The position numbers and the translations under genes are program-made. Below are positions 3,390 through 64,000 of a stretch of 64,000 nucleotides of DNA, one piece after another (position 1 is the first letter of the stretch; every line of letters begins with the position of its first letter). Below the pieces are notes generated by a model. That model saw only the letters and a list, made by a program, of their open reading frames with translations. It did no database searches and was not told the DNA's origin. Source of the DNA: Daucus carota subsp. sativus (taxonomy: Eukaryota > Streptophyta > Magnoliopsida > Apiales > Apiaceae); contig NC_030386.2 of assembly GCF_001625215.2 (NCBI RefSeq), forward strand, positions 16,214,545 to 16,278,544. Direction: 5' to 3'.

Positions 3390-6239
3390 ATGCCAATCAC
3401 CGATCACCGGACCACAAAGTCATGGAACTTGTGTAGCTTCTGGAAGTGTTTTGGGGCAAGAGACTCTTCTTCTTCATCTACTCATAATCTTTCTCCTGCT
3501 CACCAAAACAGCAGCCTCGAATCCAACTCTAAGCCGAACAATAACTTTGCTTCTGCTGTCAAGTTGATTCTTCCGATCACTCGTCGCCTTCGTTTCGATC
3601 CTTCCAGAACTCTCTACTTTCCATGTAAGTACACCTCATTTTTCGTAATCCGTGACGGGTGACCCTAACTTGACTACAGGCGGACAAGACTATACGACTG
3701 GCCCGGGCCACATGTATATTTGTGTGTATGATTGACTGTGGATTTGTGTGTTTTAGATGAAGCAGGTAAACAGGTGAGAAGTGCTGTGAGGATCAAGAAT
3801 GCCAGCAAGTCTCATGTGGCCTTTAAGGTATTTTGTATACTTTTCTTTTATTGAATTATGTTTTTTTTTTGTCAGGTTGAATTATGTGTTGTAAACATTA
3901 TGATTTAAATCATATAACTAATATATATGATTAATTTGTTTAAGACTAGGAAGTTGGTGTATGGAGGATTATACTCTAATTCTATTGACTTGTGTTTCTC
4001 CCCGTGTTGTGCTTCTTAAGACCTTATTGGCTTATTCTATTTAATGTAATTTAGTCAAATATGTTGATGATATTTACGACTAGTATGTTTGAATAATCTT
4101 GCTGAATTGTGAGTGCTCTGCTACAAATTTCCCGTTAGGATGTTATACCTTTGCTGTATTAATCATCTGATTTTTATTGGAGTTGACTTAGGAATGCCGA
4201 TTATTTTTTCTTGTCCTGGAGTGATTTCATTAAAACTTTGTTCATTGTGCTTTAGTTTCAAACCACAGCACCTAAGAGTTGTTTTATGCGGCCTCCTGGA
4301 GGAATACTTGCTCCTGGTGAAAGCCTTATTGCTACCGGTAAATTTCCTGGCATTTTTGTTTATGAGCATCCTTTGAGATCAGTAGACATTTGCATTTTGG
4401 TGGATTAAATTTCTATACGAGTGAATGTCATTTTGTATTCATTTCTACAGTGTTCAAGTTTGTGGAGCTGCCAGATAACAATGAAAAACAATCTGACCAG
4501 AAGAGCAAGGTGAAGTTTAAGATTATGAGTTTGAAGGTGAATGCAGGAGTGGATTATGTACCGGAGTTGGTGAGTTTTCTATGGATGTTGTAGGCTTTCC
4601 TTGACGGTGATCATATCTGCTTATAATATGAAAATCTTAATATAACTGTATTCCTGCATACTATACACAGAGTTACAACATCAGTGTGACCATGTGAACT
4701 AGTATTTTTCTTCGAATCTCTTGTATAATTAGCATTTAGCGGTCTTTGATTCTGAAAATGTGGTAACTGGCTTAGCAGAGTAAGTGTCAGACGAGCCGGA
4801 TGGTTAATACTACATGATTATTGTAACTCATAAAAAATCCAGCAGTTAAGATTATATGCAGTACTGAATATCCTGATACATCCTATCATTTGTTCGGAGT
4901 AGATCAACGATGATAGCTCTCTTCCAGTTGTAGGACACCGGTGTTTAGCTTGATTTTCATAAAGTGATGGATTCATGTACCTATGATGTCAGATAGAAAC
5001 TTCACCAAAAATAGTGGTAATAAATGAACTGAAGTATACATTTTTGAATAATAAGACATCACATTTAGGCTGTAAGCGTGGTATACCTTAATTGATCACC
5101 TACATAGGCAGTTATGTTATGTCAGTTATATAAATAATGCTTGTATTAGTGTCTGTATAAATGCGAATATATTAAACTGATAGAACAACACTGTGTACAG
5201 GATTCAAATCATACATATAATTGTTATGTGAATTTTTCCAAGTCCATCTCACAACCATTTAAAAGGACCACATGTAGTACAAATGTTTGCCTCATCTTAT
5301 CCTTGACATGACCTTACACGACTTTAATGAGGTTGTCTGCAGGTCAATAGACCTATTTCTATGTGTTACGAACGGAGATTTGTTTTTCTTTTTCCGCATC
5401 ACGAATATGATCTGAAATATCGTGTTATGTACATCTTAAATCACTTTTTTTGTCAATATTGCATTTCTGTTGGTGATTGACTGGTAAGTAATATTAGTTA
5501 TTTTAACTTTCTTACACAGTTTGATGAGCAAAAAGATCAGGTAGTTGTCGAGCGGGTTTTACGGGTAGTTTTCTTAGATGCAGAGCGATCGACTCCTGTA
5601 AGTACAAGCCAGCATCACCATGTCGGCAATCATTCCATCTATTTTATATTTATAGTTAGTTGACTGTGTTGATGTTGGATTATGTTCAGGCATTGGAAAA
5701 ACTAAAACGTCAATTGGCTGAAGCAGAGTCAGCTATAGACACACGCAAGAAATCTCCAGCCCCTACAGGTCCGCCAGTTGTCGGGGAAGGTCTCGTCATA
5801 GACGAATGGGTAAGCAAACTAATATTTTCTAGAAGAGTGTTTTGTTATGCTATCTTGATGTAGAACGTATATCCCATGTGATGCAATTAAAAAAAAGTGA
5901 AGGCTAGCGAACATCTGTGGGCAGTTATTGTCTACATTATGTTAAAGGAAAGAAATTGTAGGACGCAGAATTAAATTGTAAACATGAAACACTTAAAAAC
6001 AGCTATATTTGTTACTGGCTCCTACTGAAGCCCCTTTTATCTCTTAGTTGTTTAACAGAACTATATTTGTTGTTATAATGGATTCAGACATGTTTTATCA
6101 TGCACTTAGTTCCCTGTTAACTGATATTTGGTTTAATACACGTTTCTTTACTAATAAATGCTCCTTTACTTTTTTCCAGAAAGAAAGAAGGGAGAAATAT
6201 CTTGCTCGCCAGCAGGTTGAAGCAGTTGATTCAGTGTAA
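3390..6239 (+). CDS. VAP-like MSP-domain protein (PVA4/MAMI type), 7 exons
   Basis: Exons: 3390-3624, 3757-3827, 4256-4337, 4451-4569, 5520-5597, 5690-5809 and 6180-6239; all introns are GT/AG and the joined frame gives 254 residues. Residues 1-60 are a serine- and asparagine-rich head. An MSP domain follows from about residue 68 (LRFDPSRTLYFPYEAGKQ), with the family block KSHVAFKFQTTAPKSCFMRP. A short predicted coiled coil (ALEKLKRQLAEAESAI) and the conserved tail GEGLVIDEWKERREKYLARQ come last. There is no C-terminal membrane anchor, which matches the PVA4 subgroup rather than the anchored VAP27 proteins. MSP proteins bind FFAT-type peptides at ER contact sites; that role is inferred from the family. 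The ATG at 3390 is the first in the exon and aligns with the family's usual length. Closest remembered relatives are Arabidopsis At4g21450 and At5g54110 (MAMI). The family assignment is very secure. Confidence 0.95.
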
Positions 6240-12004: not shown

Positions 12005-15000
12005 TCAGAAATCGAAATCATCATGATTAGGCTTAGGTGAAGTTAACAGAGCAGCATAGAGCCTTAACCTATCTTCCCCAAGTGATGAACACCTTGACAA
12101 GGGTCTCCTTGGCCTTATAAATGACAAGGAACTCAGCGTCAAGCGGTGCCTATACCTCCGCCAAGCCAACTGAATTGCAACAGCTGCCCAAGTTCTCCAA
12201 CCAGGCGAATAATACCTAGCACTGCGCTTCACTTTCTCATTCACAAATGTGTACCTAAAATGCTGTGTTACATACTTCACATCTTCCGCTTCTAGCCCAA
12301 AAGCTTCAGTTGTTTCAAGAGTTTCTAGTGATGATGAAGATAAAGGCAATCTTTCCACAAAAGGTTTCCTAAGACACCATGATAAAAGCTCGTCGCCACT
12401 GAAGTTTCCAGGGCCTAACATGCAGCAACTTTTTACACCATCTCTTAAATCTTGGCTGCTTTGTAGGTGTCCTCTTACTATAAACAGCATTCTCTGAACC
12501 GGATCACCTTCCTTTGATATCTGAAATCATCATATTCAGATCAGATTGAATTAAAGGCCTTGTTGACATTAACAGGTAGCCAGATTCAATTTTAATAGAT
12601 AATATCTCTGTTTACTCTGGGCCAGAACTTACGGTTTCTCCCTTAGTGAATATGAGGGACTTGACACGGTCACATATGTTCTCCAGAACCAAACTATCCA
12701 TGTGCTGAAACAAAGGCACCTGAGAGTTCAATGGCCAACAGTATGTTAGAATATACCAACACATTTTTGTAAGAAAAAGACATCAAAGTTGTTAATCTTT
12801 TTCGACAAGAGGCCTTCATACATTATTACCTGCTTGACCAAGTCCAAACAGAGATGATACTTAATATCCCTCCTAAGACCTTCAGGGAGATTCCTGATCA
12901 TATCACATTCATCAACGCCACGCATGGCAGCCCAACGCTGCCTCTCATAGTTGCGCACTCTCTGCCTAAACTCTTGCGGCAAATGCCTCTTTCTCATCCA
13001 CCACTCAACGTTCCTCATCTTCAACTGCATCGCCTGTTTCTTTGACGTTGTTGCATGCAAAAACACCTACACACGTACAAAATACAAACACATTATTAAT
13101 TAGTATCACTGTGAAAAAACACATCTTAGGCATGTATGTAAACTCATGATAATTGTTATCTTTATACCTTGATATTACCAATTAACATAGTGACTAGTAA
13201 GAGTCCACTCGTAAGAACAATTATGATAAACACAACTTCTAACCAATCTGTGGTGCTCTCCAAGTTCCCGAATGTGCTGATATTCATAATGCATAAATCC
13301 ATCAATACGTCGCTACAAAATTACATTCAGGATAAATAAACTGATTGTAAAACTAACAAAATTACTTGTGTACCTAAGTGTCATAAGGCCCCAGAAGATG
13401 GGAAACAGTATTTTTTCCAAACGGCTCTCATTTGTGACAAGTTGAACCGTCCATTTATAAGCTCCATAACCAAATTTATCATGATCAGCAATGAGACACA
13501 GAGACCTAGCTTCTTTATTTTCTCCCCATAACAGTCTTGTGCTGGCTGTCACCAGGTTTTTTCCTCCATAAAATAGATTGGTTTCGCAAGCCAAAAATTT
13601 AGGGCCACAACTTTGTGTTTTCATGCATTGTTCTGTCAAGCATTTTGTTGCTCTCTGGATTCCTAATAAGTACCAACATGCTCCTACAGCCTGTGTGCAT
13701 TAAAATGGTAACAGAGATCGTATAAATTATCAAAATCTGTAAAAAATACCAAGGTACAGAAAATGATAAAAATTTAAAATGGTAAAAAAAAATGTAAAAT
13801 TAGGGGGCATGTGTCCCGGGGCCTCTTACTAGATCCGCCCCTGCCTATGGGCAGGTGCAAATGAATCCAAGTACTTAATAGTAGTTTGTGTATATGGAAG
13901 CAATATGCTTAGTTAAGCTAGAGAAACAGTAAAAAAGATAACCATATGCTAATAATGACTCTAGGTATATGATCTGAGGTAGATTATGATGAAGAGTAGA
14001 AAGCTGGAGACTCACATGGGAGGCAACGAAATAAGCAATCAAATTGAGAGCAATTCCCCACCATACGGTCCCGAAAATATAACCGGAAAGATTTTGCATT
14101 CTGCGCAAGAGGTATACAGAGTGGTAAATCTTTGGTAAATACTGCAGTAGAAACATGACTAGAAATGTTGTCATCACTTCTGTCGTCGAACCCTTTTCCA
14201 GTAACGCTGGGATTACTATCCATAAGACAACCTGCAGTTTGATAAATTTAGGTAAGTTAGGATGATCAAATGCATGTGTGGAACCTTATTCATAATTTAA
14301 ATTTATTGTTGAACAATAATTTTATTTGCATATAACACCTTTAATTATATTTTTGTGTACATTTATCTAATCGGATCACATGCTCTTTTCTGGTTCACTT
14401 CATTGTTTGCTTCCAAACAACAAAATTTCTAATCCAACCTCTAACGCATGGAATAACTATCCCGATTCTGATTAACCAAACTCATTAACTATAAATTGAA
14501 CGCCTCATATCCATTTCTGCATATTGTTAGGGATCTTGTTTTCTACAAACTAAACTCAATAAACTCAAAACTCGGTGTCTCTTGGAGAGTGAATTGATTA
14601 AATCCCAATCTACCCAGAAAAAACGAACAAAAATAACCTGCATCACATGTTGGCACACCGGGGAGTACTACAAAAGCTTATGTACCACTCTGCATGCCAA
14701 CTAGTCATGACATGCATGCATTTGTCATTCTCTGCAACCGTTCTGTGCTATTGTACAAAACCGTGACCACACCCAATTTATCGTACCAACAGATCGATCA
14801 CTCAGAGCTACTAATAAACAATTATACAGCATCTCCAAAATAAAACCACTAATTACCAACCAATCGATTCAAATAACTAATCAAACCTGAGGTATAGGTA
14901 GGATGACAAAGAGATCAAAAAAGAAGCCCTTCCTAGCCTTCAAGTAGCGCATGGCCACGGTGCGTGAGCTCGTATCATGTGGACGGCTTCTCTCGTCCGC

Positions 15001-19100: not shown

Positions 19101-20987
19101 GGCTAAAATTTGTGAAAAAGTATAAGATACTAACATATCCAAACTGAGAGATCCGATACTTTACTTTTTGCATGTAATTTATGTTGAAGAAAAATATTTC
19201 TCCACATTATTTTAAAAAAAATTCTAAATAAAAATTTAATATATAAAAATATATTTTTTTCTATTTTCAAATTATAATCAAAGTGAAATTGAGGGAGGTA
19301 CGATTTTTGTGCTTTTAAGTTTCACGAATTCATATCCTTTAACATATTATAAAAATACGGTTGTAATAGCAGATAAAGCATGTGCATGAGGACCAATGCT
19401 ACTCTGTACTAATCTATAGTGCCAAGAACTGCCCAAGCAACGTTTGATCATTTAGATTTAGACTGTTGGATCCAATGATCCATATAAATATGTGCTTCAC
19501 GGCGGTGAATAAATTAAAAAAAGTTGTGTTCCGTCGAAATAATATAGGCGAAAGAGTCACAAAGATCACGGGTAAAATAGTTCTTAACTTATCAATTAAT
19601 ATGTTCATATATATTTTGAGGAGTCAAATTTAAAAAATCAAAATGAATAGATATAGAAATTCAAGATTTCAAAATTTCAAAGTATAACTTACAAATCATA
19701 AATAAATTTATACAGGAAAAACAAATAAGCTATAATAATTTGTAACATTTTTTACTCCGATGAGTAACGAGCCTATAGATCTACATGCATAATGCATGCT
19801 AGATTTTGTACCGAACTTGAAATGATTTTCTTGTAACTTGGCCTTTTCTTCTTGTCGTGTTCAAGTGGAAAGTCTGGTTTCCTTTTTATTTGTTTGGGAG
19901 CTTTTTATGCAATATTGAGAGGTATGTTACATATTCTTGTACCATTTAACTGTCTCCCAGGTCTAACCGATGAAGCGGAAAATATTTTCTCCTTTCCATA
20001 CAAATGTATGCTTATGTTTGGGTTGATAATTAATAAAATTTAAGAAGATAGGTAAAGTAAGAGTGAAAATATAACCAAAGTGTTAGATCAATTAATATTA
20101 AATATATAAAAATAAGTATAGTGAAGAATAATAATAATAATAATAATAATAATTGATTTTTATATTGTAAATTTGGAAAATGTTAGTATCTAGAATTTGA
20201 TCTCAAATTTTTTTTCTCAGATCCAACATGTATTGTCACAAAATCTGTGAACAAAATTTAGGATATGCATCATTACTTATTTGATAAGTTTCAAAAAATA
20301 AAAAATAAAATGCGTCATTCTAAAAACCAAAATGTAAAGAAATAATCGTAGAGAGGGCAGTATTCATTTATCTTTCATCCTTATAATAAGTTAAGTTCAC
20401 CACTAATCTCGACTATATACTATTCCTCAATAAGTTAGCGTGTGTCTAGTTACGTAATGTTATTTCTCGATAAGTTAACGTGTCTAATTAATTTCTCTAC
20501 ATAATACTGATTAACAAGTCTTCATTTAACAAGATCTCGAAAAAAATGGAAACAGCAACTCACTAGTGTATTGAATTTCATGGTACTTGTGTATCTGAAT
20601 TCTTCTTTTTTGATAAGCGTTTCAAAATGGTTGTTTGCATGAATGGTTTGCTCTGTGAAACCAGCCTAACACTGTGCCCTCCTCTCTAGAGGTCAGGAAC
20701 CGAAGGCCTACGCCAATGGTCCATGACCCAACTCTGAACTCCCTACTTGCCTACTTGGATTGGACAAGCCGGATAATGTTCAGCCCCAAACAGAAAGACT
20801 CTGAAAACACCATCACAATCACAAGTCAAAGAAATAACTTCTTGGCCCATTAATTTTAGGGCCTGTTTTAAGATGCCATTCCCTCCTTCCCTACTCGGAT
20901 CATTCGTTACTTGTGACGAAAAATTTCTTAAAAATAAGCTATTATATCTTATTGAATAAATACGTTAAAAACGAAATCGTTTCCATT
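19101..20987. other. Gene-free AT-rich spacer
   Basis: An AAT trinucleotide run lies at about 20128-20153. No bounded transposon or supportable gene is seen. The frame at 19852-20043 has no family features. Confidence 0.45.
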
Positions 20988-20992
20988 GCGGG

Positions 20993-21035
<43 letters not shown>

Positions 21036-21060
21036 ACGTTTTCGATCCACGTTCACCGCA
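20988..21060 (+). tRNA. tRNA-Phe (anticodon GAA)
   Basis: The 73 bases fold as a full cloverleaf. The acceptor strand GCGGGGA, D arm GCTC...GAGC, anticodon loop CTGAAGA with GAA at 21021-21023, variable loop AGGTC and discriminator A follow plant nuclear tRNA-Phe almost base for base. There is no intron. The A box (TAGCTCAGTTGG) and B box region are present, and a TTTT run follows at about 21073. Compared with the standard plant sequence, as I remember it, the T stem differs at three places. The outer pair has changed from G-C to A-T, which keeps pairing. The innermost base 53 is T facing C61, a mismatch at a normally conserved G53-C61 pair. It may therefore be a weak or decaying copy. Confidence 0.85.
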
Positions 21061-21416
21061 TATATCCATTCCTTTTACACTTTTGGGAGCCAAGTCATTC
21101 ATTGCAACTTTCTTTAACCCATCTTTTACAATCTAGCTTTTTCTGATCTATTTTCTACATGCATATTTTTCATTTTTTAGCTTCTGCTAATCATTCTCTT
21201 TCTGCATCTGGTGCCTTCCCAATATTCACCCTTCACTACTAGAGTCTAGAAACAACAGATGTATACATAAAAAATAAACACATTTCTTGCATGATGCATC
21301 ATACTATTGTTCTTTTCTTTTTTTGGCTTGAAGCACCTTTCTAGTTGATGCTACTAATTAAATTTCTGCAATCTGCACCAACAACAATATTTTCTCATGG
21401 TACAACTAATCCAGTA
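21061..21416. other. Spacer between tRNA-Phe and the myosin-tail gene
   Basis: Probably holds the 3' untranslated region of the minus-strand gene that ends at 21417. Nothing else is recognisable. Confidence 0.4.
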
Positions 21417-24400
21417 CTAACGTCGTTTACTCATCCCTCGCCACCATTTGCGATGACCTGCTTCAGCATCTGAGACTCCAATTTTATGAAGCTTCACCTT
21501 GGCCTCCCGTAAACGAGCCTTGTAATCTTTCATCCATGTTTCAAATTTGTTTTTCAGGTTTCGAAGGTCTTTATCAGGGTCTGCATAAGCTGAGTTCCCT
21601 GACTCCACAATAGCTTTCACTTCATCATTGAAAGTATGTTTTCGTTGCTCAAACTCTTTCATCAGGTGGCACACTGGATTGCCATTGCCATTAGATTGCC
21701 GTACTGCTCCAAACTCCGTCAGATCCTCTTGCCTCCTGGACTGATTGGAGGTGTTATTAGAAAGACTTCTTTTCACTGCAGCCAGGCTCATCTGCACATG
21801 ACATATACCATAATCACTCATACGTAAATATACAAGTGGCTTCGGCCAGTAATGTAATTGGACCGCAAAACCAATCATGTTTAATTAGAGCATAAGATAG
21901 CGATCAGATTTAAGTACTGATGTAAAAACATATCCGAAATATAGTACAAGTACTTACTTGTAACGATGATGTCTGCTTTTGCCACATGTCTTCCATCAAT
22001 TTCATTTTGCCTTCATATTCCAGCCACCTAGCTTCATATTGCTGCACTTGATTTCGCAGTGCTGCATTTTCTTGTTCTTTTTTCTCTAGGTTCATCTCTG
22101 CCTTCAAAACCCTCTTTTGAAGCTCTTCCACAGATAAAGGCAGAGCCTTTTTGCTTACTTGTGGCATCTCCTGCAAAATCAAGCAGACCTTACTATTAAC
22201 CAGAAAGCTTCAATATGTTTATGATATTCCCTTGCACCAATAGGTTCTCTAACATTTAGATCAAGCATCTTTCATATATTTATAAATTAATGCTTGTCAG
22301 TTGCAATGCAACTACATACAGAACTCATGTGATAGCTTGCACTGTAAAGATGAGGTTATTTGTATAATCTAGTTGTCAGTGGCAATCTATATAGGTCTAA
22401 GTATGAACTTCTGTGTAAAGACGAAATAGATATTATCTAAAAAAATGACGATGGCATAACTGGGTCTGTTAAATGAACTGACAAATTTTCTTCCTTTTCT
22501 TATCCAATTCAGAGCATCATGTCCATATGTGACGCAAAAACGCAGATTTAAACATATTTTATGACTGGTGAAACTGTAAAAGTCAGTACAGGCGCACATT
22601 TATGGAGCATAATTTTTGATTAGACGGAGTCCCTTAAAGCTCAAGCTCCAACTCTAAAACTTTAAGGGTCGTTTAATATTTTCTGGCAATTTGTGTTTCT
22701 TAACCATGTTGAAAGGAAGTTCCACTAGTGAAGGAGGAAAATTCAACACACCAGATCATATATTGATCAATCACAAAACATAAATAATTATACAGTTTAT
22801 AATCTAGACATCCTTGCCTTGTTCAGGCGAAGTAGTGAATTGGAGAGTTTTAAAATACTAGAGTCCGAAGCTTCAGAGCAACCTCTATTCTAAGTTCCAT
22901 AAAGTATCCAACTCAAGGGCAAACAGTTTGTTATAAAAAAAAATTGGCAGAGATGGAAGTTATAACTTGACTGGAAGACGAACAACACTAACTCTGATCG
23001 GGAGCTATATATACACTAAAATGCAAAATTCTATATATGAAAAGATGAAATATATAAATTTATCAGGCGGAAGAAATGGTTGTCAGTCACAGAATGCAAG
23101 TACCTTGACATCAGATTTCCTCCTACTTGGACTGTGAACAGAACCTGGGTTACATTGATCCAATTTTTCCAGATTCTGCAATATCTTAGCCTGTTTTCTA
23201 GCCAGCCATCCACGTATTACTGCAGCAAAGACAGGTTTGAATAATATATCGTCTTAGAATAAAAAGGGGCACATTTTTGAATATGACATCTTACCTGCTT
23301 GTAATTGTAGAACAATCCTTTCCTGCTCATTTGTTTTCTGAACAACCAGTTCCCTTTGATTAATGAGACAATCATACTTCCTTCTAGCATTTGCAGCACG
23401 GACAACTGCAGGATATTGTTCTTTTGTTAAATTTTAAAAGCCGTACTAAAGATATGCGAGTTTTTACATTAAAAAAGAAGAAGTTAATCTTATGAAATTT
23501 TTGCCCACTATTCATTTTTGTGTGAATTAAGTTATGACATAAAATTTTTCAAGACAATTCAAAGTTCTGAAGCCACTATTAGCGGCATGAAGCAACAGTC
23601 TGCACATTGATCAATATTATTTGAATCAAAGAAGCACCTAAAGTATATCTATCTGAGGAACCAACTAAAACATCTTTATATATTAATAAATCTAAATTTA
23701 TGTGATCCTTACATGATTGAAGCGATATCACCCCTCGTTTCAGCTCAAGGAAGTAACGACGATCCTGATAAGAACGAAAGCATTTCTGCACCTTAAGTGT
23801 GCCTAGCAGAACCTGTTTTCTTGCTTCCTCCAATGTTCCATTCTAATATGCAAAAACACGTCACACATAGGGAAATTAAGTAACAGAATTTAATCCGATT
23901 TCACATAAAACAAGACATTCATACATGATACATCTCGCTGTCCCACCTCCTAATATGAATTTATAAATGGAATACAGATATGCGGTGGAAAAGATTCTCA
24001 GTCAAGGCTTCAGTCTTTTCATCTGGTTCATTTTGGCCTAAACTCTAACTTCAAAATTGCCCCTAAATTTTTTTCCAAAATAATGTAGTAGAATTTTGTT
24101 AAGAGCACAATATCATCATGGTAAGCCTATCTCTTAATAGCTCGAGAAATTTAACATGGTATCGGAACTCATGTCATGTCAGCTGACGACCAAAACCTAT
24201 ATATAGACTGTAGACTTGTAGTAGATGAGATTAATTTTAGTTACCTTTTTGGCATCAAAACTGCCACCTCTTGAATCCTTTTTCACACAACTGAGAGCAG
24301 CAGAGGAGTTTTCGAAATCATTAGGCAGCGGGCGCTTAGACGAAGGCCGGCGAGCCTTGGAGACCGGCCGAGACGGCAGCTTGGGCGGCAAGTCTCTTGG

Positions 24401-24487
24401 CCTGTCAACTTCCTCTCTCCGCCGGAGAGAATCCAGCATTTCCTCCATCGAGCTCCGAGCTATCATAGATGGCGACACAGACAACAT
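21417..24487 (-). CDS. Headless class VIII myosin derivative: N-terminal extension, IQ motifs and tail, no motor
   Basis: Exons in coding order: 24245-24487, 23713-23842, 23295-23405, 23104-23219, 21958-22170 and 21417-21791; all introns are GT/AG and the frame is open for 395 residues. Residues 1-81 match the plant myosin VIII N-terminal extension (MLSVSPSMIARSSMEEMLDS, then DRPRDLPPKLPSRP). The next exon enters directly into the neck: LLGTLKVQKCFRSYQDRRYF (about 93-112), the IQ-like VISLQSFVRAANARRKY (about 119-135) and LQAVIRGWLARKQ (about 159-171). Residues 201-271 are a predicted coiled coil (LEYEGKMKLMEDMWQKQ). Residues 272-395 are the conserved myosin VIII tail, with NKFETWMKDYKARLREAKV and the end HRKWWRGMSKRR. 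About 700-750 residues of motor are absent, with no P-loop, and the first intron (about 400 bases) cannot hide it. Full-length myosin VIII is about 1100-1200 residues. The product could dimerise or bind calmodulin but cannot walk on actin. It may be expressed or a recent pseudogene. Confidence 0.85.
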
Positions 24488-25541
24488 TTCTCTATCTCAA
24501 ACCTCTATAGTCTTTTCAGACAGACTTAAATCAAACTCATGACATTGTTGAAACCTCGTATCTAAAGCCTGATCAAGATCACAACTCAAAACAACCAGAA
24601 TGAAATACAAAAAACAAGAAACAAATTACAAAAGAAGCAGAACATTTGTAGCTGCAAAAAACACTTAAATTGGCATCTACACAACAAATGATTTTTTTCT
24701 AAATATTGCGAAATATAGAAAAACGAAGATAGAAGAAGATTGACAGCAAAAACGAGAAAACGAGAGTTATATAGTATGAAATTAATTTAGTACAACTACA
24801 ATACTTTAGGTAAGTTTGTTGCTAGTAGAGAAAAAGGATCTTTATTTCTGGTTAAATATGTTGATATCGATAGATTTACTTTGCATGTTCTGCCGAAAGG
24901 AAACTGTAGATTTCTACTCTCTTTTTTTGAATAAACTGATTTCTACTTAATCTAATTGTATAGAAATGGATATATCTAATTATCTATAGCTGTCCATTGA
25001 AGAAAAATTTGGATGAAGACCTCGACGTCATATATAAACAGATATGACTAGAACCGGAGCAACTTAACAAAGGCCAAGAATAGAAGCCTCATCTATTTTA
25101 TTTATTTTTTTGTCGAAAAAATAAATCACTTTTATCAAATAGAACAAAATATAGTCGGGACTTTCGTAAAAAAAAACAATCGAGAAAAACTTTAAACTAT
25201 GGATATAATCAGGTTGGAAAATAAATAACATCCAAAAAATAATTAGTTGTTTTCTGTTTATTTAAAACATAAAATTTAAAATTTTATAAGCTAAAAAATG
25301 AATCAACGATCCAAATTGCACGAACATCCCATAAAGCAGCAACACCACAATTGATCTTATCATACATAAGTAGTTATTAGCCCGATGGTCAGAAACCATA
25401 ATTACATAAATTTAGGTTGGAGTAGCGGCACTCCAGCTATCTCAATGCTGATTGCCGAATATCATCTATAAACATGTCGAAAGTGTAACCCTGATGGATG
25501 AATAATCTTTGACCGTGAAAGGTGACTTCTTGCCATAATTA
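24488..25541. other. Leader and promoter region of the headless myosin gene, then spacer
   Basis: The minus-strand leader lies just above 24487. Beyond it the DNA is AT-rich with no bounded repeat or gene. Confidence 0.4.
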
Positions 25542-25778
25542 CTACCTCCATCCCAAATTAGATGACCCCGTTGACTTTGGGCACGTAACTTTAGGTGCAT
25601 TGACCGTCTACTTCCGAAATATATTTTTTTATTTTTTCTTTTGTAAATAAAAATTTCATATTTAAATATTTATTTACAAAAATAAAATTTTAAAAATAAG
25701 TCATGTAGCTATACGGTCAATGAACCTTAAACTGTGTGCCCAAAGTCAACGGGGCCATCTAATTTGGGATGGAGGGAG
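25542..25778. mobile_element. Stowaway (Tc1/mariner) MITE
   Basis: The terminal inverted repeats are long and nearly perfect: CTACCTCCATCCCAAATTAG on the left, and ATTTGGGATGGAGGGAG at the right end. The inner arms (CCCGTTGACTTTGGGCAC) also pair. It is flanked by the TA target duplication (25540-25541 and 25779-25780). It has no coding capacity. Confidence 0.9.
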
Positions 25779-25780
25779 TA

Positions 25781-30928: not shown

Positions 30929-32588
30929 TTTTTTTTTTTTTGAAATTAACTGATGCATTTCATTCAAAGCGAAATATCATAAGAAAGGGCCTCCAACAAA
31001 CACATAGGAGGAGACGTGAAAACATTATAGGAATTTGCTAAACAAGGGATTTTAGCCACCTCATGTGCTACCCTGTTTGCATTTTTCCGGATAAAACTAA
31101 CTGAAATCTTAGGCAAACTCGTGAGGAGCTGCCGACAACTCTCAACAATATCACCAATCTCTAAATAATTCAGACTATGGCCTTGAATAGCTTTGATCGC
31201 AAGTTGAGAATCCGATTCCACTATGACTTCATCATTGTGCCTGTGCATATCTTTGAGCCATGACAGAGCTTCACGCACGCCTAGCGCTTCTGCTTCACTA
31301 ACAGGAACCTCCCCCCAGAATCTACAGTTCTTTGCTTCTATAAAAGTACCTGTACTATCTCTTAGAACCATTCCAACAGCAAAGGTCTTCGTGCCTGGAT
31401 AAACAGAGGCATCAACATTCACTTTAAATACTCCAGCTGCAGGTAACTTCCACCTTGAAATCGTTGATCGACTTGCATGTGTAACAGTTACATTCTCTTG
31501 GGTACTACTCTCCTGTTTCTTCCTCGCTCGAGTCCATTCCGAGAGCATACGAAAGCTGCTGTCCATAGCAAAACTCGGAGTAACTACCTTTCCCTCCCAT
31601 ACCTTCTTGTTCCTCCAGTGCCATATACCCCATAACACCACACATATTTTCACCTTTTCTTCATTTGTTGTCGTGCTAAGTTTCTGAATCAACCACTCTG
31701 GAGCAAACTCCGTTTGAGACCAGTCATACGTTAAGCCAATATGATTCCAACAGCCAACAGCAAAACTGCAATCATAAAATAGATGTAGCATATGTTCAAT
31801 GTCAGTGGTACACATAGGACAAGTAATGGGAATTCTCACTCCTTTAGAACTCAGTCGTCTCCGAACTGGAACTGCATTTCGACAAAAACGCCATACAAAG
31901 ACTTTAACCTTGGGGGGTAATTTAAGATGCCAGATATTTTTCCATCCTGTACAGTGAGGCACTGTCGTACTACCAAAGTGAGAATTATACCATAAGTGGT
32001 ATGCATGTTTCGCAGTGTACAGACCATTTGTCGAATTTGCCCACACCACTCTATCAGTCATCATACGTTGGGGAACAGGAACTTTTAATATCTCATCTGC
32101 ATCTTCTTTGAGAAAATTTCTTTGGATTAACTCTATATTCCATTTTTCCTCTCCTGGCAAAAGCAAACTAGACACTTTTTCAGTCCGTCCCACATACAAC
32201 TGATTTTGCTCCACCTTAAAATTAGCTTTGTTTCTCAACCATGGATCTTGAGTAGCGACAATATCATTTCCATTACCCAGTACCCATCTGAAACCACTTT
32301 TGAGTTCCTCCTTTGCAGTCCATATCCCTTGCCATATAAAACTTGATCCCTGGCCTTTATTTGCCTTTAAGACATGATCATGCGGGAAATATCTCCCTTT
32401 AAACACTCTTGACACCAGTGATTGTGGATTTTGCATAAAATTCCAAATATGCTTGCCAAGTAAAGCGATATTGTACCCATGTAAATTTCGAAAACCCAAG
32501 CCACCTCTACTCTTTGCATAACTCATATTATTCCAGGAAAGCCAATTGATACCCTTCTGATCCTCTCCTCTACCTGTTCGCCACCAAT
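30929..32588 (-). mobile_element. 5'-truncated L1-type LINE with 3' poly(A)
   Basis: A 13-base T run at 30929-30941 is the poly(A) tail of a minus-strand insertion. A long target duplication surrounds the element: AGTTATTGTAATTCTAACTCG ending at 30928, and a copy carrying two extra bases (GTTATTGTACA, then ATTCTAACTCG) at 32590-32611. Only the 3' third of ORF2 is present, as usual for target-primed reverse transcription that stopped early. The open frame and the intact duplication suggest a fairly recent insertion. Confidence 0.85.
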
Positions 32589-32679
32589 AGTTATTGTACA
32601 ATTCTAACTCGTTTTTAGAATGTGCACAATAATGGAGCCCTCGATGAAGGAATCGATGCCCTTCTCCTATAATTTGCAA
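30964..32679 (-). CDS. LINE ORF2 C-terminal part: zinc-binding region and RNase H
   Basis: A 571-residue open frame. About residues 1-28 are read from flanking host DNA, so the listed ATG is not a real LINE start. LINE sequence begins near the YWWRTGRGEDQKGINWLSW motif, the end of the reverse-transcriptase region. A reverse-transcriptase zinc-binding domain (zf-RVT, PF13966 type) covers about 220-310 with CPMCTTDIEHMLHLFYDC. An RNase H domain (PF13456 type) covers about 418-550: VNVDASVYPG (first Asp), EAEALGVREAL (Glu), VESDSQLAIKAIQG (Asp), then the RVAHEVAK end. The endonuclease and most of the reverse transcriptase are missing, so the element cannot move alone. This plant L1 group carries an acquired RNase H. 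There is no stop inside the frame. Confidence 0.85.
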   Translation of the reverse strand: MQIIGEGHRFLHRGLHYCAHSKNELELYNNYWWRTGRGEDQKGINWLSWNNMSYAKSRGGLGFRNLHGYNIALLGKHIWNFMQNPQSLVSRVFKGRYFPHDHVLKANKGQGSSFIWQGIWTAKEELKSGFRWVLGNGNDIVATQDPWLRNKANFKVEQNQLYVGRTEKVSSLLLPGEEKWNIELIQRNFLKEDADEILKVPVPQRMMTDRVVWANSTNGLYTAKHAYHLWYNSHFGSTTVPHCTGWKNIWHLKLPPKVKVFVWRFCRNAVPVRRRLSSKGVRIPITCPMCTTDIEHMLHLFYDCSFAVGCWNHIGLTYDWSQTEFAPEWLIQKLSTTTNEEKVKICVVLWGIWHWRNKKVWEGKVVTPSFAMDSSFRMLSEWTRARKKQESSTQENVTVTHASRSTISRWKLPAAGVFKVNVDASVYPGTKTFAVGMVLRDSTGTFIEAKNCRFWGEVPVSEAEALGVREALSWLKDMHRHNDEVIVESDSQLAIKAIQGHSLNYLEIGDIVESCRQLLTSLPKISVSFIRKNANRVAHEVAKIPCLANSYNVFTSPPMCLLEALSYDISL

Positions 32680-33834: not shown

Positions 33835-34546
33835 TGGTAGTGGGGAAGCTCAGACAGCTTTTAAGCAGTGAATGACATTTGTAATTCAGAGATATGGGAG
33901 CGACGAGATAGCTAAAATCTGTATGATCTGCTGAAAATTGTGGCAGAATAGAAACGATATTGTATGGAATCAAAGAAGTGTAGAACCTTTTGAAATGGTG
34001 CAATCAGCAGAACTAGTTCTTAATCAGTGGGAGCGACCATCGGAAGGTATGATTAAGATAAATACTGATGGAGCCTTATTCGAATATTCTAACACTTATT
34101 ATTCCATGATAGTGAGAAACCATACAGGTGACTTAATAGAAGCAAAAGCAAGTTGTAAACAGGGAACAGTGAACCCAGAAATGGCCGAATTGATGGGTAT
34201 AAGGGAAGCTCTTATTTGGCTTAAAGACAAAGATTACACGGGTGCAATTGTGGAAACAGAATGTCTGGTCATGGTTCAGGCAATGAGGAGCTCGACAACA
34301 ACTCTTTCATACCTGGGAAGAGTGATAAATGAATGCAAATCTTCATTGGTTTCATTAAAACATCGTAATGTTACTTTAAAATTTGTGAAGCATTCTGCGA
34401 ACAAAGTTGCTCACTATATAGCGAGAAACTCTAGTTCTATAACTGATCGTAGGTGGATAGGTGATAATACTGCTCCAATCTTTTATCATGTAATGTTGGA
34501 TGATTTAAAATTTTAATACAAGTTTTCTTTTATGGCAAAAAAAAAA
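33835..34546 (+). mobile_element. Second L1-type LINE fragment (RNase H end), damaged
   Basis: The frame 33938-34516 encodes a LINE RNase H domain: INTDGALFEY, then EMAELMGIREALIWLKDK, VETECLVMVQAM and KHSANKVAHYIAR. Reading further 5' in the same frame gives LINE-like protein (GSDEIAKICMIC, then KLWQNRNDIVWN). It is interrupted by two TGA codons at 33869-33871 and near 33931, each where the family has Trp. A 10-base A run at 34537-34546 is the poly(A) tail. It is related to the LINE at 30929-32588 but older and on the opposite strand. The 5' limit and target duplication were not found. Confidence 0.75.
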
Positions 34547-37734: not shown

Positions 37735-39021
37735 CTAATATGCACCGCTGTTGATCATCTCCACATACTGTCTCAGTGACTCCTTTCTCTGCAGTCTCAT
37801 ATCCTCTTTAAACCTACTGATAAACTCCTCAGCTCGCTTGTTTAACTCGTCCTGACCCAGGGAAGGATCTCTTCTGAGCTTTCCCCAGCCGGATGATCCT
37901 TCTAGTGTCCTTGATATGTTATTCCGGTTGCTGCTTGCTTGCTGGTTGAATATCTCAGATTTGATCATATTACGAGGATCCTGCAAGTTTCCACCACTGT
38001 AATGGTGAGTTGTTGGCATTGGACGCCCATCTGTAATAGCCTTCCAAGTGCTCTCCAAGGTTTTAAATTCCTTCTCAGGCTTTTGAGCTCCCAATTTCTT
38101 TCTCCCTAAAAATAAATTTTACAAAACTTAGTATACCATCTTCCACCCTAAGTTTCGTATAGTAGTTTCTCAACTTAGATAGTATTGATGTTTCCCTGGA
38201 CAACCAAAAATAGGAAAGAAACAAATCCTATCTTTATATAAATGACGCAAGGATAAACTTATTCATTTGTCGTCTTTCCTGACATACCTTCTCTTTAAAA
38301 CCAAGTTAGCTTCATGTTTAACATACTGGCAGACTTAAGTCGAACCATTTTCATCAGAAAATAACTAACACTCTTTTTTAGCTGATCCCTGATTTCACAA
38401 CTCTGATGAAACTAACTAGAAGTCTAGAACAAATAAACAGTGTGAGTAATACTCTTGATTATTCTAGTAGTACGTACCTTGAGTATGGAGTTGGACATCT
38501 TTCGGGTGAATGAAGCTCTCTGACCCCGGCAACTTCCATGTCTCAACATTTGCACCCTTGGCGGTGCCCTCATCAGAACACCTTACATTAGCATTATCAG
38601 AATCAACCACTTGTACATCATTCACACATGTTATAATCCTAGTCGTTGGAAGACTGTCGTTCTCATTCCCAGGCGCTTCGTCTGAAAATTCCACACACTC
38701 AACCCCTGTTGAAGACTGCGGTAAGTCTACCAACTCCCTCTGATCTTCACCCACACAATGATCATCTGTAGGAAATAATCTGACAGGCTCAGAGTAGTCG
38801 CGGTGATGCTCATGAAGCTTTGAGGACGCGAAAATAGTGATGATAATACAATTTATCACGAGATAGAGATACGGAGGCCTAAGCCAAGACGCCACAGGCC
38901 TCCAAATTAATCGAACTCTGGAGATTGTAATGTCCATTGTATGCTGCGGAGAGAATGTCACCATAATCACCATGGAAAACACAACTGCAATACTTAAGGC
39001 CAATCTTACTGATATTGTCAT
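37735..39021 (-). CDS. DUF4408/DUF761 membrane protein, 2 exons
   Basis: Exon 1 is 38478-39021 and exon 2 is 37735-38105, giving 304 residues. Two hydrophobic segments, residues about 5-24 (VRLALSIAVVFSMVIMVTF) and about 49-66 (PPYLYLVINCIIITIFASS), form the DUF4408 region. A long acidic, serine-rich middle follows. The C terminus is a DUF761 motif: QDELNKRAEEFISRFKEDM, then RLQRKESLRQYVEMI. This pairing is typical of a plant family related to cotton-fibre-expressed proteins whose role is unknown. The signal TATATATAGTC on the minus strand near 39174-39183 is a plausible TATA box about 150 bases before the ATG. Arabidopsis At5g54300 (as remembered) is of this type and lies near THE1, supporting the assignment by order. 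The first exon starts at the first ATG and the introns are canonical. Confidence 0.88.
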
Positions 39022-41303
39022 GGCTTCACTTGTTTTCAGAATATACGAATGATATTAGTATAAATTTATGACGATAATATATTATCTCTGATACAGATAG
39101 TAGCAGAAACTGATCTCAAAGGATGTGCAGAGGGGGCTAGCTGGTATGTTGCTGCATTTTTTATACGACTAGACTATATATAATGGTGACTATGGTACGG
39201 ACAGTCAGATTAAGATATTGGTTATGATTTAATTATGGTGATTATCAGTAGTTACGTGTATACCATGGTGATCCATGTGTTGGCTGTTAAGAGCTCAGAC
39301 CAGATAAATTAGGCTAAATCTCGAAAGAAGTCAATACATGAATTAATGACTTTTATAAGCATGATTAAGAGTTTTGTGGAACAACCTCTCTGATCATAGA
39401 GATACTAGCTTTCATTGTGCCGTGATGCAGCTTATCTCAATTTCGATCACTTTCGATGATTATCTAATTTAGAGCAGTAAATGAAATCGGTTTGTGTGGA
39501 TTTGTCAGCCATCCTGAATACGAGAATAGTTTCTAAAATTTAGTGCTTGACGACATGCCACACCATGGAAAAATCGAATTTTAATAACGAATTTCTTTAT
39601 CAAACTGATGCATATTTAGGGGTAAACAAGGAAGTTAAAATGTATAGATTTAATTTGGTATTGCTTAAGTTCTAAACATATTTTATAGTACTGAGACTAA
39701 AAATCTACCATAATAATCATCAATCATAAATTTAAACCTCAATTGACTAGCGAGAAATGGCGACTATTTTTTATACAGGTTAGGTCTGTTTGAAATTATG
39801 GATTACGTGAATAGAGAGAAGAAATGCAAAGACAGAAGCGAAGTTGAAGTTTACTAAACCTTTCGTTCTGGTTCTTCTAAATATATATGTGGATTATAGA
39901 TTCCTCGTCTTCAACTGAAATCAATCTCTTAAAAGAAAACGGCCGAACCTGCTCGATAATTTAATGTGAAATTATCAGCTAAAAGCAAACAAACCAAGCA
40001 CAGGGTGTTTTTACATGGAATGTTGGTCGCACCTAATAGTTCATCGATACAAATGTTCATATTTTGCACGGCCATTCATCAAATTTCCCTTTATAGCAAC
40101 CGATTTTCGGTTATACTGTATTAATCATGTTGCATTTCCATGTTACGTTGGGTGTGGCGGGACATGAATCCGATCCGAATAGTACTCAAAATGAAATTTA
40201 AAATTGACTGAAAATGATCCCGTTCACTTGAAAATAATTGGAGATAGCCTGAAATTATAATTTTATTTATTTTTATTTAAATATTTATCTTGTCTATTTT
40301 TATTTAATTATATCCCGATTCAAAATTGTCGTGTTTATCACATTTTAGTCCCGCAATTTGTTTATGCGTGACAAGTTCACAGCCATATATTATTCTTGTA
40401 AATTTCAAAGAAAGATCTACCAATTGGTATTGACATTTGACCATATTCGAGATTTTACCAACTTATTACCAACTCAAGGACTTCTTAAGTGAACAAAAAT
40501 ATTAATTTAATAAACGAACCTGCAAAATATAAATAGTTGCATCGATGGTACAAATCAGAATCACTGGTATCCTGGGTATGAATTAGAATCACTGGTATAT
40601 AAATTTACTCTTTCTAACTCTCATTCTGGATATAAACCAGAACCACTGATATATAATTACTTTCTTGACAGTTCTTCGTAATATGAGCTATAAACCAGAA
40701 TCACCCGATATATAATTCACTCTTTGATTATTTTTCCTCATTTATTTCATAACATGAGATGTGTATAGCACCCGTCCAGTGTATAAATGAATGACAATTG
40801 TTGAGTTATATTATTGACTTTTATCTATATAGTCCAGATTTGTGAATCATAAAAAAAGCAACATAAAATAATCGCATGCTTTGTAAAAGTAGGATCCAAC
40901 TCTAATTTACTTTGTTACTCGTCATCATCATATAGTCACACATAGGAGTAGAAGTTTCTTTGCCTAAATTTCATTTGGAAAAAGAGAGTCATGCACTGTC
41001 ATGATTACGAAACATCACAATTTTAAAAATTATCTAAAAGTGAGCAAGATTACTTAGAGCTGATCTACAACAAACTGTATCAAAGTAACTCATCAACTGA
41101 ATACTTGAACTGTTACCGAGTCCTTTCTCACTTCTGATGGATAAAATTCAGTGTCCAAACTTTATTACCAATAAATATTGTACAGACATGTATGCTAAGT
41201 TTGATGATAACCAATACACTGAGGTTCGAATGAATCTATATTTTCTAAATCCGCAATCGGATTTATCTTTCACAACTATCTCATTTTATTTTTAGTTTCT
41301 GGA
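39022..41303. other. Long spacer with a short tandem repeat
   Basis: 39022-39190 is the promoter of the DUF761 gene. 40548-40725 holds four imperfect repeats (listed separately). The rest is AT-rich with no supported gene. Confidence 0.4.
40548..40725. repeat. Four imperfect tandem repeats
   Basis: The phrase AAAYCAGAAYCACTGGTATA, usually continuing into TAATTTACTCTTT, occurs at about 40551, 40582, 40634 and 40692, with spacing of 30-60 bases. It is not part of any recognised transposon and codes for nothing obvious. Confidence 0.55.
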
Positions 41304-58354: not shown

Positions 58355-59537
58355 ATGTCGAGCCTGTTAGTCATTGTATTACTATGTGTTTCAGGGATAG
58401 TTCAAACCAGAGCATATACTAGCCTGTATTGTAGATATTCGTCTCGTTGTGGTGCCAAGACTGTGTACTGCCCGGAGGAATGCCCTGACAGCGAGTCCGC
58501 CAACAGCAAATCTAAAGTTTGCCGTATTGACTGTGATTCTCCCACATGCAAATCTGAGTGCAAACGTAAGAACCAGATATTCGAATATATTAGCACTATA
58601 ATATAAATAACTTTCTGCTTTATGCTAATTCCAATACAGGTCTTTAGATAATAGTCATGGATCCAGAGAATGTATATCATATTTTACTATAAGTAGCAGT
58701 AATATTTCAAATTCTTAATCTGAATAACATGTTATATATATATTCTGTTCAGGTATCAAACCAGACTGTAACAGCCCTGGCTCAGCATGCTATGATCCTC
58801 GCTTCATTGGAGGGGATGGCATTGTATTCTATTTCCATGGAAAGAGTAATCAGCATTTCAGCTTAGTCTCTGACCAAAACATTCAAATCAATGCTCGATT
58901 CATTGGCCACAGGCCAACTGGTCGGACCAGGGACTTCACTTGGATTCAAGCCCTTGGACTCCTCTTCAACTCTCACACATTCTCTCTCGAGGCCATCAAA
59001 TCTGCCACATGGGATAACGAAGTTGACCATTTAAGATTTACTTATGATGGAGAGGAAATTCTCATCCCAGTAGGACATCTCTCCACATGGACCTCCCCAG
59101 TAGAGAGCGTGAAAGTAGAGAGAACGGCAACTAAGAACAGTGTTTTAGTCACTATACCAGGAATTGTTGAGATTATGGCCAATGTCGTCCCAGTGACAAA
59201 GCAAGATGATAGGATTCACAGCTACAAAGTGCCTTCCAATGATTGTTTTGCTCATTTGGAAGTTCAGTTTAGGTTCTTTTCTTTGTCTTCTAAAGTAGAA
59301 GGTGTGCTAGGACGAACTTATCAGCCAGATTTTGAAAACCCTGCAAAGCCGGGAGTGGCCATGGCTGTGGTGGGCGGTGAAGACAAGTACAGAACCCCCT
59401 CACTTCTCTCACCAGAATGTGAATCATGTGTGTTCTCCCAAACTCAAGATGCAGAGAACAGCTCAGCACTGATGGAAGGCACTCTGGATTGTACCGGTAA
59501 CCTGTCCAATGGAAACGGAATAGTTTGCAAGAAATAG
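58355..59537 (+). CDS. Secreted root-cap/LEA-related protein, 2 exons
   Basis: Exon 1 is 58355-58565 and exon 2 is 58753-59537, joined in phase 1 to 331 residues. Residues 1-20 (MSSLLVIVLLCVSGIVQTRA) form a signal peptide. A Cys-rich segment follows with at least ten cysteines (CRYSSRCGAKTVYCPEECPD, then CRIDCDSPTCKSECKR). The body (FIGGDGIVFYFHGKSNQHFS, then FTWIQALGLLFNSHTFSLEA) and the late block LGRTYQPDFENPAK are typical of the plant root-cap family (PF06830), annotated in Arabidopsis as LEA-related (At5g54370 and relatives). The protein should be exported to the cell wall; no biochemical activity is known for the family. Key features: TATA box at 58280 and AATAAA signal at 59694. It is the upstream neighbour of THE1, as in Arabidopsis. 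Frame, signal peptide and splice sites are all intact. Confidence 0.93.
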
Positions 59538-62085: not shown

Positions 62086-64000
62086 TTATCTTCCACGAGG
62101 ATTTACGAGCTGAGAGAAAACAGCACTAGTGGCACCATCTTCTGCATCATCATCAGTACCTGAGTTACGCCCTTCAATCATACTTACACTGTTGTCAAAT
62201 GGCTCTAGTGGAGTCATTGGAATGCCCGGGATGTGATTAGTGCTGTTATCTTCCGGTTCCATAAGGGCCGATGATGTCTCCTCAAGCTGAAGAGCATACT
62301 CTAAATTCCACAAAACATCCCCCATTGAAGGCCTGTCAACCCCATAATCAGCAAGACACTTCTCTGCAGTTTCCCCATACTTTTTCAAAGAAGCTGAATT
62401 TACGTTTCCAACCAAGTTTTTATCCATGATCTCATCCAGCATGCCTTTCTTTTGCCAAGCCATAGCCCATTCCGCAATATTTACTTGCTCTCTAGGAAGA
62501 ACAGGATTTAGAGCCGGTCTTGTGCAAAGAACTTCCATGAGGACAACACCAAATGAATAAACATCAGATTTCTCTGTCAGCTGCTGTCTTCTGAAGTACT
62601 CTGGATCAAGGTATCCAAAACTACCCTTGACAGCTGTACTCACGTGAGTCTGATCAAGAGCCGGTCCGGCTTTTGAGAGGCCAAAATCAGCAACTTTTGC
62701 CACAAAGTTCTCATCCAAGAGTATGTTTGTTGTCTTCACATCTCGGTGAATTATACTCTGAGCTGCACCTGTGTGTAGATAGTGAAGACCTCTAGCAGCC
62801 CCAATACAAATTTCAAGGCGCTGCTTCCAAGAGAGGGGTGGAAGGTCAGATCCATAAAGATGGCTCCTAAGAGGCCCATTAGCCATGTATTCATAAACTA
62901 GAACCATTTCTGAGCGCTCATCACAATAGCCAATGAGAGAAACAAGGTGACGATGTCGTAGCTTGGACAACATTTCTATCTCTGTTCTGAATTCTGCAAG
63001 GCCTTGCTCAGATCTTGGGTTTCCTCTTTTGACAGCTACTTTAGTCCCATCTTCCAGTGTTCCCTGGTAAACCCTGCCAAAACCTCCAACACCTAATAAT
63101 GAGCTCTCATCAAATTTGTTGGTTGCCTCCATGATTTCTTGGAATGTGAAAAATCGCCCAAGATTAGAAGATGCTAGTGAGATGCAGCTTGCTGTTCCAC
63201 TCTTCTGAGATACAGTTGACCCCTTTGTTAAGGTCAAAGAGTTTCCATATAAGGGTAGAGGAAGCCATGAATTTCCCTGGTTAGGTGTCTTGGATTGGCG
63301 GGTGAGCAAGCAGCAATAACACAGACCTATAAGCAACAATGCAGCTGAGGCTCCTGCTGCACAGCCCACTATCAAGCCAATTTTCTTCTTTTTAGACGAC
63401 TTCAGAAGGAGATTTGCAACTGCGTCATGCCCATCTAGGCTTTTGGCTTCATTGCTAATCTTCATGACTTCCAGACCATTGAGTATCGCAGCTGCCAATT
63501 CAGCACTAGGGTCTGGACCAACACTTACAGTTAAAGTATCAGAATTAGCCGAGGAATTAATTATGAAATCTTTATAGTAAGGCGTATTTAACTTGCCAAG
63601 TAGAGATGAAAGGTCCAAACTTGGAAGAGCAATATAAGAATTTATATAAACGGTGAACACAAGAGTGTTCAGTGACTTGCTATAGATATCGCAGAAATGA
63701 ACCCGAACAAGATAGGAAAATTCTGGATCAACAGGAAGTACCCAAGTCATGTTGAAGTTTGAGTCAGCTACATTCGAATCTCCCATGGTTTCGGCAGTAG
63801 CATAAACCGAATTTGGTGCAATTTCAGGTGTAAGAGCATCTCGATATTCTATGATAGCAGGGCTAGCTGAAATATTCACAGCAGAACTGTTAACATGAAG
63901 GTATTTTTCATCATTTACCCAAGTTCGTCCAAGGGTATCATTCTGAGCAGTGATCAATGGACCTCCCATATTCAGACGATAAACCGTCTCAAAGGCAAGT
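62086..64000 (-). CDS. THE1: THESEUS1 receptor-like kinase (CrRLK1L), N terminus beyond the window
   Basis: The open frame runs off the right edge: before the internal Met at 63969 it reads FETVYRLN, so the true start lies outside. Visible order, counted from that Met: second malectin-like domain (1-175), transmembrane helix about 197-222, glycine loop GVGGFGRV (293-300), catalytic-lysine motif VAVK (311-314), catalytic loop HRDVKTTN (408-415), DFG (428-430) and activation segment GSFGYLDPEYF. The C terminus TSAVFSQLVNPRGR is diagnostic of THE1. THE1 is a plasma-membrane sensor of cell-wall integrity that binds RALF34 and restrains growth when cellulose synthesis is disturbed. All kinase residues are present. 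Like other family members it appears to have no intron in this part. Its neighbour is the root-cap/LEA-related gene, transcribed towards it. Confidence 0.97.
   Translation of the reverse strand, partial: LAFETVYRLNMGGPLITAQNDTLGRTWVNDEKYLHVNSSAVNISASPAIIEYRDALTPEIAPNSVYATAETMGDSNVADSNFNMTWVLPVDPEFSYLVRVHFCDIYSKSLNTLVFTVYINSYIALPSLDLSSLLGKLNTPYYKDFIINSSANSDTLTVSVGPDPSAELAAAILNGLEVMKISNEAKSLDGHDAVANLLLKSSKKKKIGLIVGCAAGASAALLLIGLCYCCLLTRQSKTPNQGNSWLPLPLYGNSLTLTKGSTVSQKSGTASCISLASSNLGRFFTFQEIMEATNKFDESSLLGVGGFGRVYQGTLEDGTKVAVKRGNPRSEQGLAEFRTEIEMLSKLRHRHLVSLIGYCDERSEMVLVYEYMANGPLRSHLYGSDLPPLSWKQRLEICIGAARGLHYLHTGAAQSIIHRDVKTTNILLDENFVAKVADFGLSKAGPALDQTHVSTAVKGSFGYLDPEYFRRQQLTEKSDVYSFGVVLMEVLCTRPALNPVLPREQVNIAEWAMAWQKKGMLDEIMDKNLVGNVNSASLKKYGETAEKCLADYGVDRPSMGDVLWNLEYALQLEETSSALMEPEDNSTNHIPGIPMTPLEPFDNSVSMIEGRNSGTDDDAEDGATSAVFSQLVNPRGR

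Follow-up and report, generated by a model that had tools for sequence, protein, structure and literature searches.

The locus described here raises the question of whether a plant genome can carry a class VIII myosin gene that has no motor and, if so, how such a gene arose and what its product would do. It lies on the minus strand at positions 24487–21417 of a 64 kb stretch of carrot (Daucus carota subsp. sativus) DNA, the whole of which was analysed and is referred to below as the window. In the gene model, six exons splice to 1188 nt that encode 395 residues and a stop codon, with no internal stops. All five introns are GT-AG, with the 3' end CAG in four of them and TAG in intron 1. The joined coding sequence remained open in none of 2000 base shuffles, and the exons have a G+C content of 0.45 overall (0.415 in exons 2–4), against 0.28–0.34 in the introns. 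In the unspliced DNA no ATG lies between the preceding in-frame stop and the start codon at 24487, and the stop-to-stop frame opens DREMLSV.

Exon 1 (24245–24487; this and all other features of the gene are on the minus strand) contains the start codon and, within the one exon, an 81-residue N-terminal extension resembling MyTH8, and ends in phase 0. Intron 1 (23843–24244), also phase 0, is 402 bases long and occupies the place where the SH3-like and motor exons are expected; it has stops in all three frames, and residues 81 and 82 are joined across it. Exon 2 (23713–23842) begins in phase 0 and includes the first IQ motif (VQKCFRSYQDR) and the beginning of the second. The remainder of the second IQ (LQSFVRAANAR), an IQ-free stretch at the place of the third IQ of four-IQ forms, and the beginning of the last IQ are in exon 3 (23295–23405), and exon 4 (23104–23219) completes the last IQ (LQAVIRGWLAR) and continues into the post-neck region. 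Exon 5 (21958–22170) encodes residues 201–271, a conserved tail region with a putative coiled coil. Exon 6 (21417–21791) encodes the remaining tail, with WW at residues 387–388, a basic end and the stop codon. The six exons are thus confirmed as real at the level of a splice model, and with them the headless anatomy that a first-pass annotation had described, an open frame with IQ motifs and no motor. Its further claim of an exon-clean, in-frame junction at residue 81/82 also stands, intron 1 being in phase 0 and 402 bases long.

A Pfam search of the joined protein found three IQ stretches (E 5e-07) and four other matches, each under its cut-off, and did not find Myosin_head at E values up to 1. 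When the window was scanned in six frames for six motor motifs, a single match was returned, a chance-like CIKPN at 6140. An approximate sequence of Arabidopsis ATM1 was then used as a tblastn query. Its motor region had only two matches in the 64 kb, with E values of 1.5 and 7.7, both distant from the gene, and no motor remnant in intron 1 was among the matches listed. The same run recovered exon 5 (E 3e-17), exon 6 (E 5e-17) and exon 2 (E 2e-06), the last aligning directly past the ATM1 motor. No match to exon 3 or exon 4 individually was listed, but in blastp of the approximate ATM1 against the joined protein one alignment, with 133 of 345 positions identical, spans both. As the myosin motor is conserved better than the tail, these sequence searches would probably have recognised one had it been present in the window. 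The SH3-like and motor domains are absent from the frame, and a motor was not recognised in the 64 kb window. The window also contains no second copy of the gene, the best non-self match having an E value of 4.4.

The class to which the remaining parts belong was examined using a survey of 67 genomes that included 208 class VIII sequences (PMC3850447). In the portions of that survey drawn on here, the MyTH8 N-terminal extensions are each on a single exon. Subtype A has all of the extension motifs, usually lacks the third IQ and has a conserved tail intron, located where conserved C-terminal region 1 ends, while subtype B has four IQ motifs and the remainder of the tail within one exon. Exon 1 of the carrot gene is identical to an approximate VIIIA N-terminus at 38 of 62 residues (tblastn E 5e-23), and the extension occupies a single exon. 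IQ pattern matches are at residues 99, 122 and 159, and the pattern is absent between residues 132 and 159. Relative to the approximate ATM1, which has four IQs, there is a 12-residue gap between the second and last IQ, placed by BLAST just past the third IQ of ATM1. Intron 5 (21792–21957) is in the tail, after residue 271, and is of the type described as a mark of subtype A (PMC3850447), matched by description. Exon 5 shares 59% identity with the approximate ATM1 over 73 columns. With three IQs, the interval from residue 132 to 159 free of the pattern, and a tail intron following residue 271, the neck and tail fit class VIII subtype A. The class VIII origin proposed in the first-pass annotation is likewise supported by the N-terminal extension, the three IQs, the class VIII-like tail and the terminal WW. 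The short exon 3 was considered as a sign of divergence after loss of the motor, and this was dropped, since absence of the third IQ is usual in subtype A (PMC3850447).

Other searches added little. The PDB sequences yielded four matches with E values from 0.3 to 0.92, a myosin-5A IQ stretch among them with 0.92, and these were not significant. A search for relatives with tail segments, in collections not meant for plants and so without bearing on plants, found none in viral contigs and, in genome contigs, 31 stretches matching a pattern, of which none encoded a relative. Within the tail, a 3.5-residue periodicity over residues 205–285 was not significant, with 750 of 5000 shuffles equally strong, and the best 28-residue windows were hydrophobic at just five of eight a/d positions; any dimerisation is accordingly putative.

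As the neck and tail fit subtype A, the simplest history is an intron-to-intron loss in a gene copy: a duplicate of a subtype A class VIII myosin would have lost its SH3-like and motor exons in a deletion ending in two phase-0 introns. Introns are retained, which argues against a retrocopy. Less weight attaches to the preserved borders and frame than might at first seem, a judgement reached by reasoning rather than computation, because both ends of the deletion would lie in introns, which make up a large share of such genes, and a match of phase is not rare.

The age of the loss is constrained only loosely. Single changes that create a stop number 178 of 3555, and under neutral drift the probability of one or more stops would reach 95% at about 0.051–0.057 substitutions per site when only stops are counted. 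Adding frame-shifting indels at assumed rates of 5–15% of substitutions lowers this to 0.014–0.029 substitutions per site. The open frame therefore only limits neutral divergence after the loss to some 0.014–0.057 substitutions per site. This leaves a recent loss or selection on the frame, and the 64 kb window alone fits either. The earlier argument that uninterrupted coding speaks against long decay holds to the extent of that bound, but a recent dead copy is compatible with it.

Such a copy, lacking its motor exons, functionless and open in frame since too little time has elapsed, is the strongest alternative. It would keep an intact frame with a chance of at least 5% up to a neutral divergence of about 0.05 on stops only, or of 0.014–0.029 with the assumed indel rates, and a headless class XI gene of Eutrema has been treated as most probably a pseudogene (PMC3850447). 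The normal borders of all five introns and the absence of stops point the other way, although neither counts strongly. We consider this a possible explanation, short of a probable one, and only slightly less likely than the mechanism that we tentatively place first, in which the product is a natural competitor of full-length myosin VIII.

The remaining gene keeps its own first exon and hence probably its own promoter and start. A TATA-like hexamer (24768–24773, minus strand), recognised by pattern only, precedes the start codon by approximately 285 bases. Short reading frames also start in the upstream region, five in all between 24886 and 24540 and four of them downstream of the hexamer; they could limit translation if they are part of the mRNA. 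A bacterial promoter scan, the model of which is irrelevant to a plant gene, returned no sites.

Several further features were seen in the window. A MITE-like element (25540–25780), approximately 1.05 kb upstream of the start codon, has inverted arms of 117 bases each that are 80% complementary and separated by 7 bases. A tRNA-Phe (GAA) gene (20987–21061, plus strand) is on the opposite strand approximately 355 bases past the stop codon of the myosin-like gene. A reverse-transcriptase-related frame of 571 aa (30967–32679, minus strand) with zf-RVT and RNase H-like domains, and a separate RNase H-like piece (33935–34513, plus strand), are of a kind that we take to be typical of plant LINE remains. 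A 637-aa frame of malectin-like receptor kinase type (62089–63999, minus strand) reaches the end of the window, and a frame with a Root_cap domain is at 58728–59534 (plus strand). Matches to DUF761 and DUF4408 are in adjoining frames (37738–38118 and 38467–39054, minus strand) that are perhaps a single gene. A cNMP-binding match (12008–12526, minus strand) is under the Pfam cut-off, and the frames near it, up to about 14285, resemble a cyclic-nucleotide-gated channel by eye.

The encoded product would be a 46 kDa protein consisting of the N-terminal extension, the IQ neck and the tail. If made, it would bind calmodulin via the three IQ motifs and occupy myosin VIII sites at the plasma membrane, plasmodesmata and endosomes, and competition for those sites, or the formation of mixed dimers, would restrain full-length myosin VIII. 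Competition leads among the mechanisms because the predicted protein corresponds to the neck and tail of an ATM1 construct with the N-terminal extension added, and because class VIII tail constructs have dominant-negative effects (PMC4199776). The ATM1 IQ-tail truncation localises to plasmodesmata, ER and endosomes, and motility is lost in the ARA6-labelled organelles associated with it (PMC2275265). The existence of headless class XI genes in nature, some of them transcript-supported (PMC3850447), also counts in favour of a competitor. Against it stand the weak heptad periodicity of the tail and the short upstream reading frames. In addition, among tens of resistant seedlings protein was detectable in one, which the authors attributed to possible toxicity, and this single GFP-ATM1(IQ-tail) line had low expression and no significant phenotype (PMC2275265). 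Targeting of PDLP1 was unaffected by class VIII tails (PMC3203191). For a headless transcript of maize O1 no protein was detectable, and its authors preferred a role in transcription to a dominant-negative one (PMC3935558), while the Arabidopsis headless class XI gene is without a discernible phenotype (PMC3850447). The idea of a natural dominant regulator, raised at first annotation, thus keeps its structural premises (class VIII origin, headless anatomy and junction), but its functional step goes beyond them. In its fullest form the idea is that this is the first headless class VIII myosin of natural origin, that an internal deletion formed it and left its promoter and N-terminal extension in place, and that it has been maintained as an inbuilt competitor adjusting myosin VIII at plasmodesmata and endosomes; this is rather unlikely to be right in every part.

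A product could also act independently of any motor, as a calmodulin-regulated adaptor at membrane sites with a positive, non-inhibitory role of its own. With a pI of about 10 the predicted protein is basic, as is its C-terminus, and it has three IQ motifs and a retained N-terminal extension, all of which would suit a scaffold, as would the recruitment of a remorin 6.6 fragment to ATM1 IQ-tail puncta (PMC8750215). We nevertheless regard this role as improbable relative to the natural competitor. Less probable still is an assembly artefact, in which an ordinary myosin VIII gene had its motor exons dropped by a collapse or mis-join running from one intron to another. An intron-to-intron loss would be a frequent outcome of a mis-join in an intron-rich gene, and an assembly deletion of this kind would leave the same structure as a real one. 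On the other side, the window contains no N, intron 1 is continuous across its 402 bases with normal borders and motor pieces were not recognised elsewhere in the 64 kb, although each of these is compatible with an artefact.

A natural headless class VIII gene was not named in the titles or abstract openings of the largely open-access literature searched. The sections of the genome survey used here describe two headless types among plant genomes, both class XI and none in class VIII, and set aside 'Fragments' (>5% missing), where a headless gene could hide (PMC3850447). The earlier statement that no class VIII example was known agrees with this, and the carrot gene is the first headless class VIII case that we could find in that literature. 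Surveys can have a blind spot of this kind by design: one in cotton counted myosins only when they had both the head domain PF00063 and an IQ domain (PMC7397272), a requirement that misses headless genes. Studies of virus movement and of traffic through plasmodesmata have used class VIII tails as artificial inhibitors (PMC4199776). A natural gene built along similar lines would show that the plant itself evolved such an inhibitor, and with a null mutant the regulation of myosin VIII could be tested without recourse to overexpression.

Compared with subtype A class VIII myosins (myosin-8A/8C/8E; PMC3850447), the carrot gene is alike in the single-exon N-terminal extension, three IQs, tail intron and terminal WW and differs in having neither SH3-like nor motor domains. 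The ATM1 IQ-tail (PMC2275265), used as a dominant negative, has the same neck and tail arrangement, and the Nicotiana benthamiana class VIII tails (PMC4199776), also dominant negatives, are alike in the tail. Both, however, are laboratory constructs and, judging by their names, are without the N-terminal extension. Mammalian headless myosin X (PMC6345916) is likewise a natural motorless form, but is an isoform of a full-length animal gene of another class. The headless transcript of maize O1 (PMC3935558) shares a motorless predicted product, but comes from a full-length class XI locus as a short transcript rather than from a gene of its own, and lacks IQ motifs. Further natural parallels are the headless class XI genes 11E2 of Arabidopsis and 11E4 of Poales (PMC3850447), which are also motorless plant genes with tail exons at conserved intron positions; with its tail exons and no motor exons, the carrot gene belongs with them as a headless plant myosin if the assembly is correct. 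In 11E2, exons 1–22 and some internal exons are described as lost, two 5' exons are added and no IQ motifs remain, while 11E4 is described as having lost its first exons (1–20 in sorghum) and some internal ones and has a 40-residue N-terminal extension and three IQ motifs. Their tails are class XI whereas that of the carrot gene is class VIII-like, and where they lost their first exons, the carrot gene is missing its middle part and retains a first exon of class VIII type.
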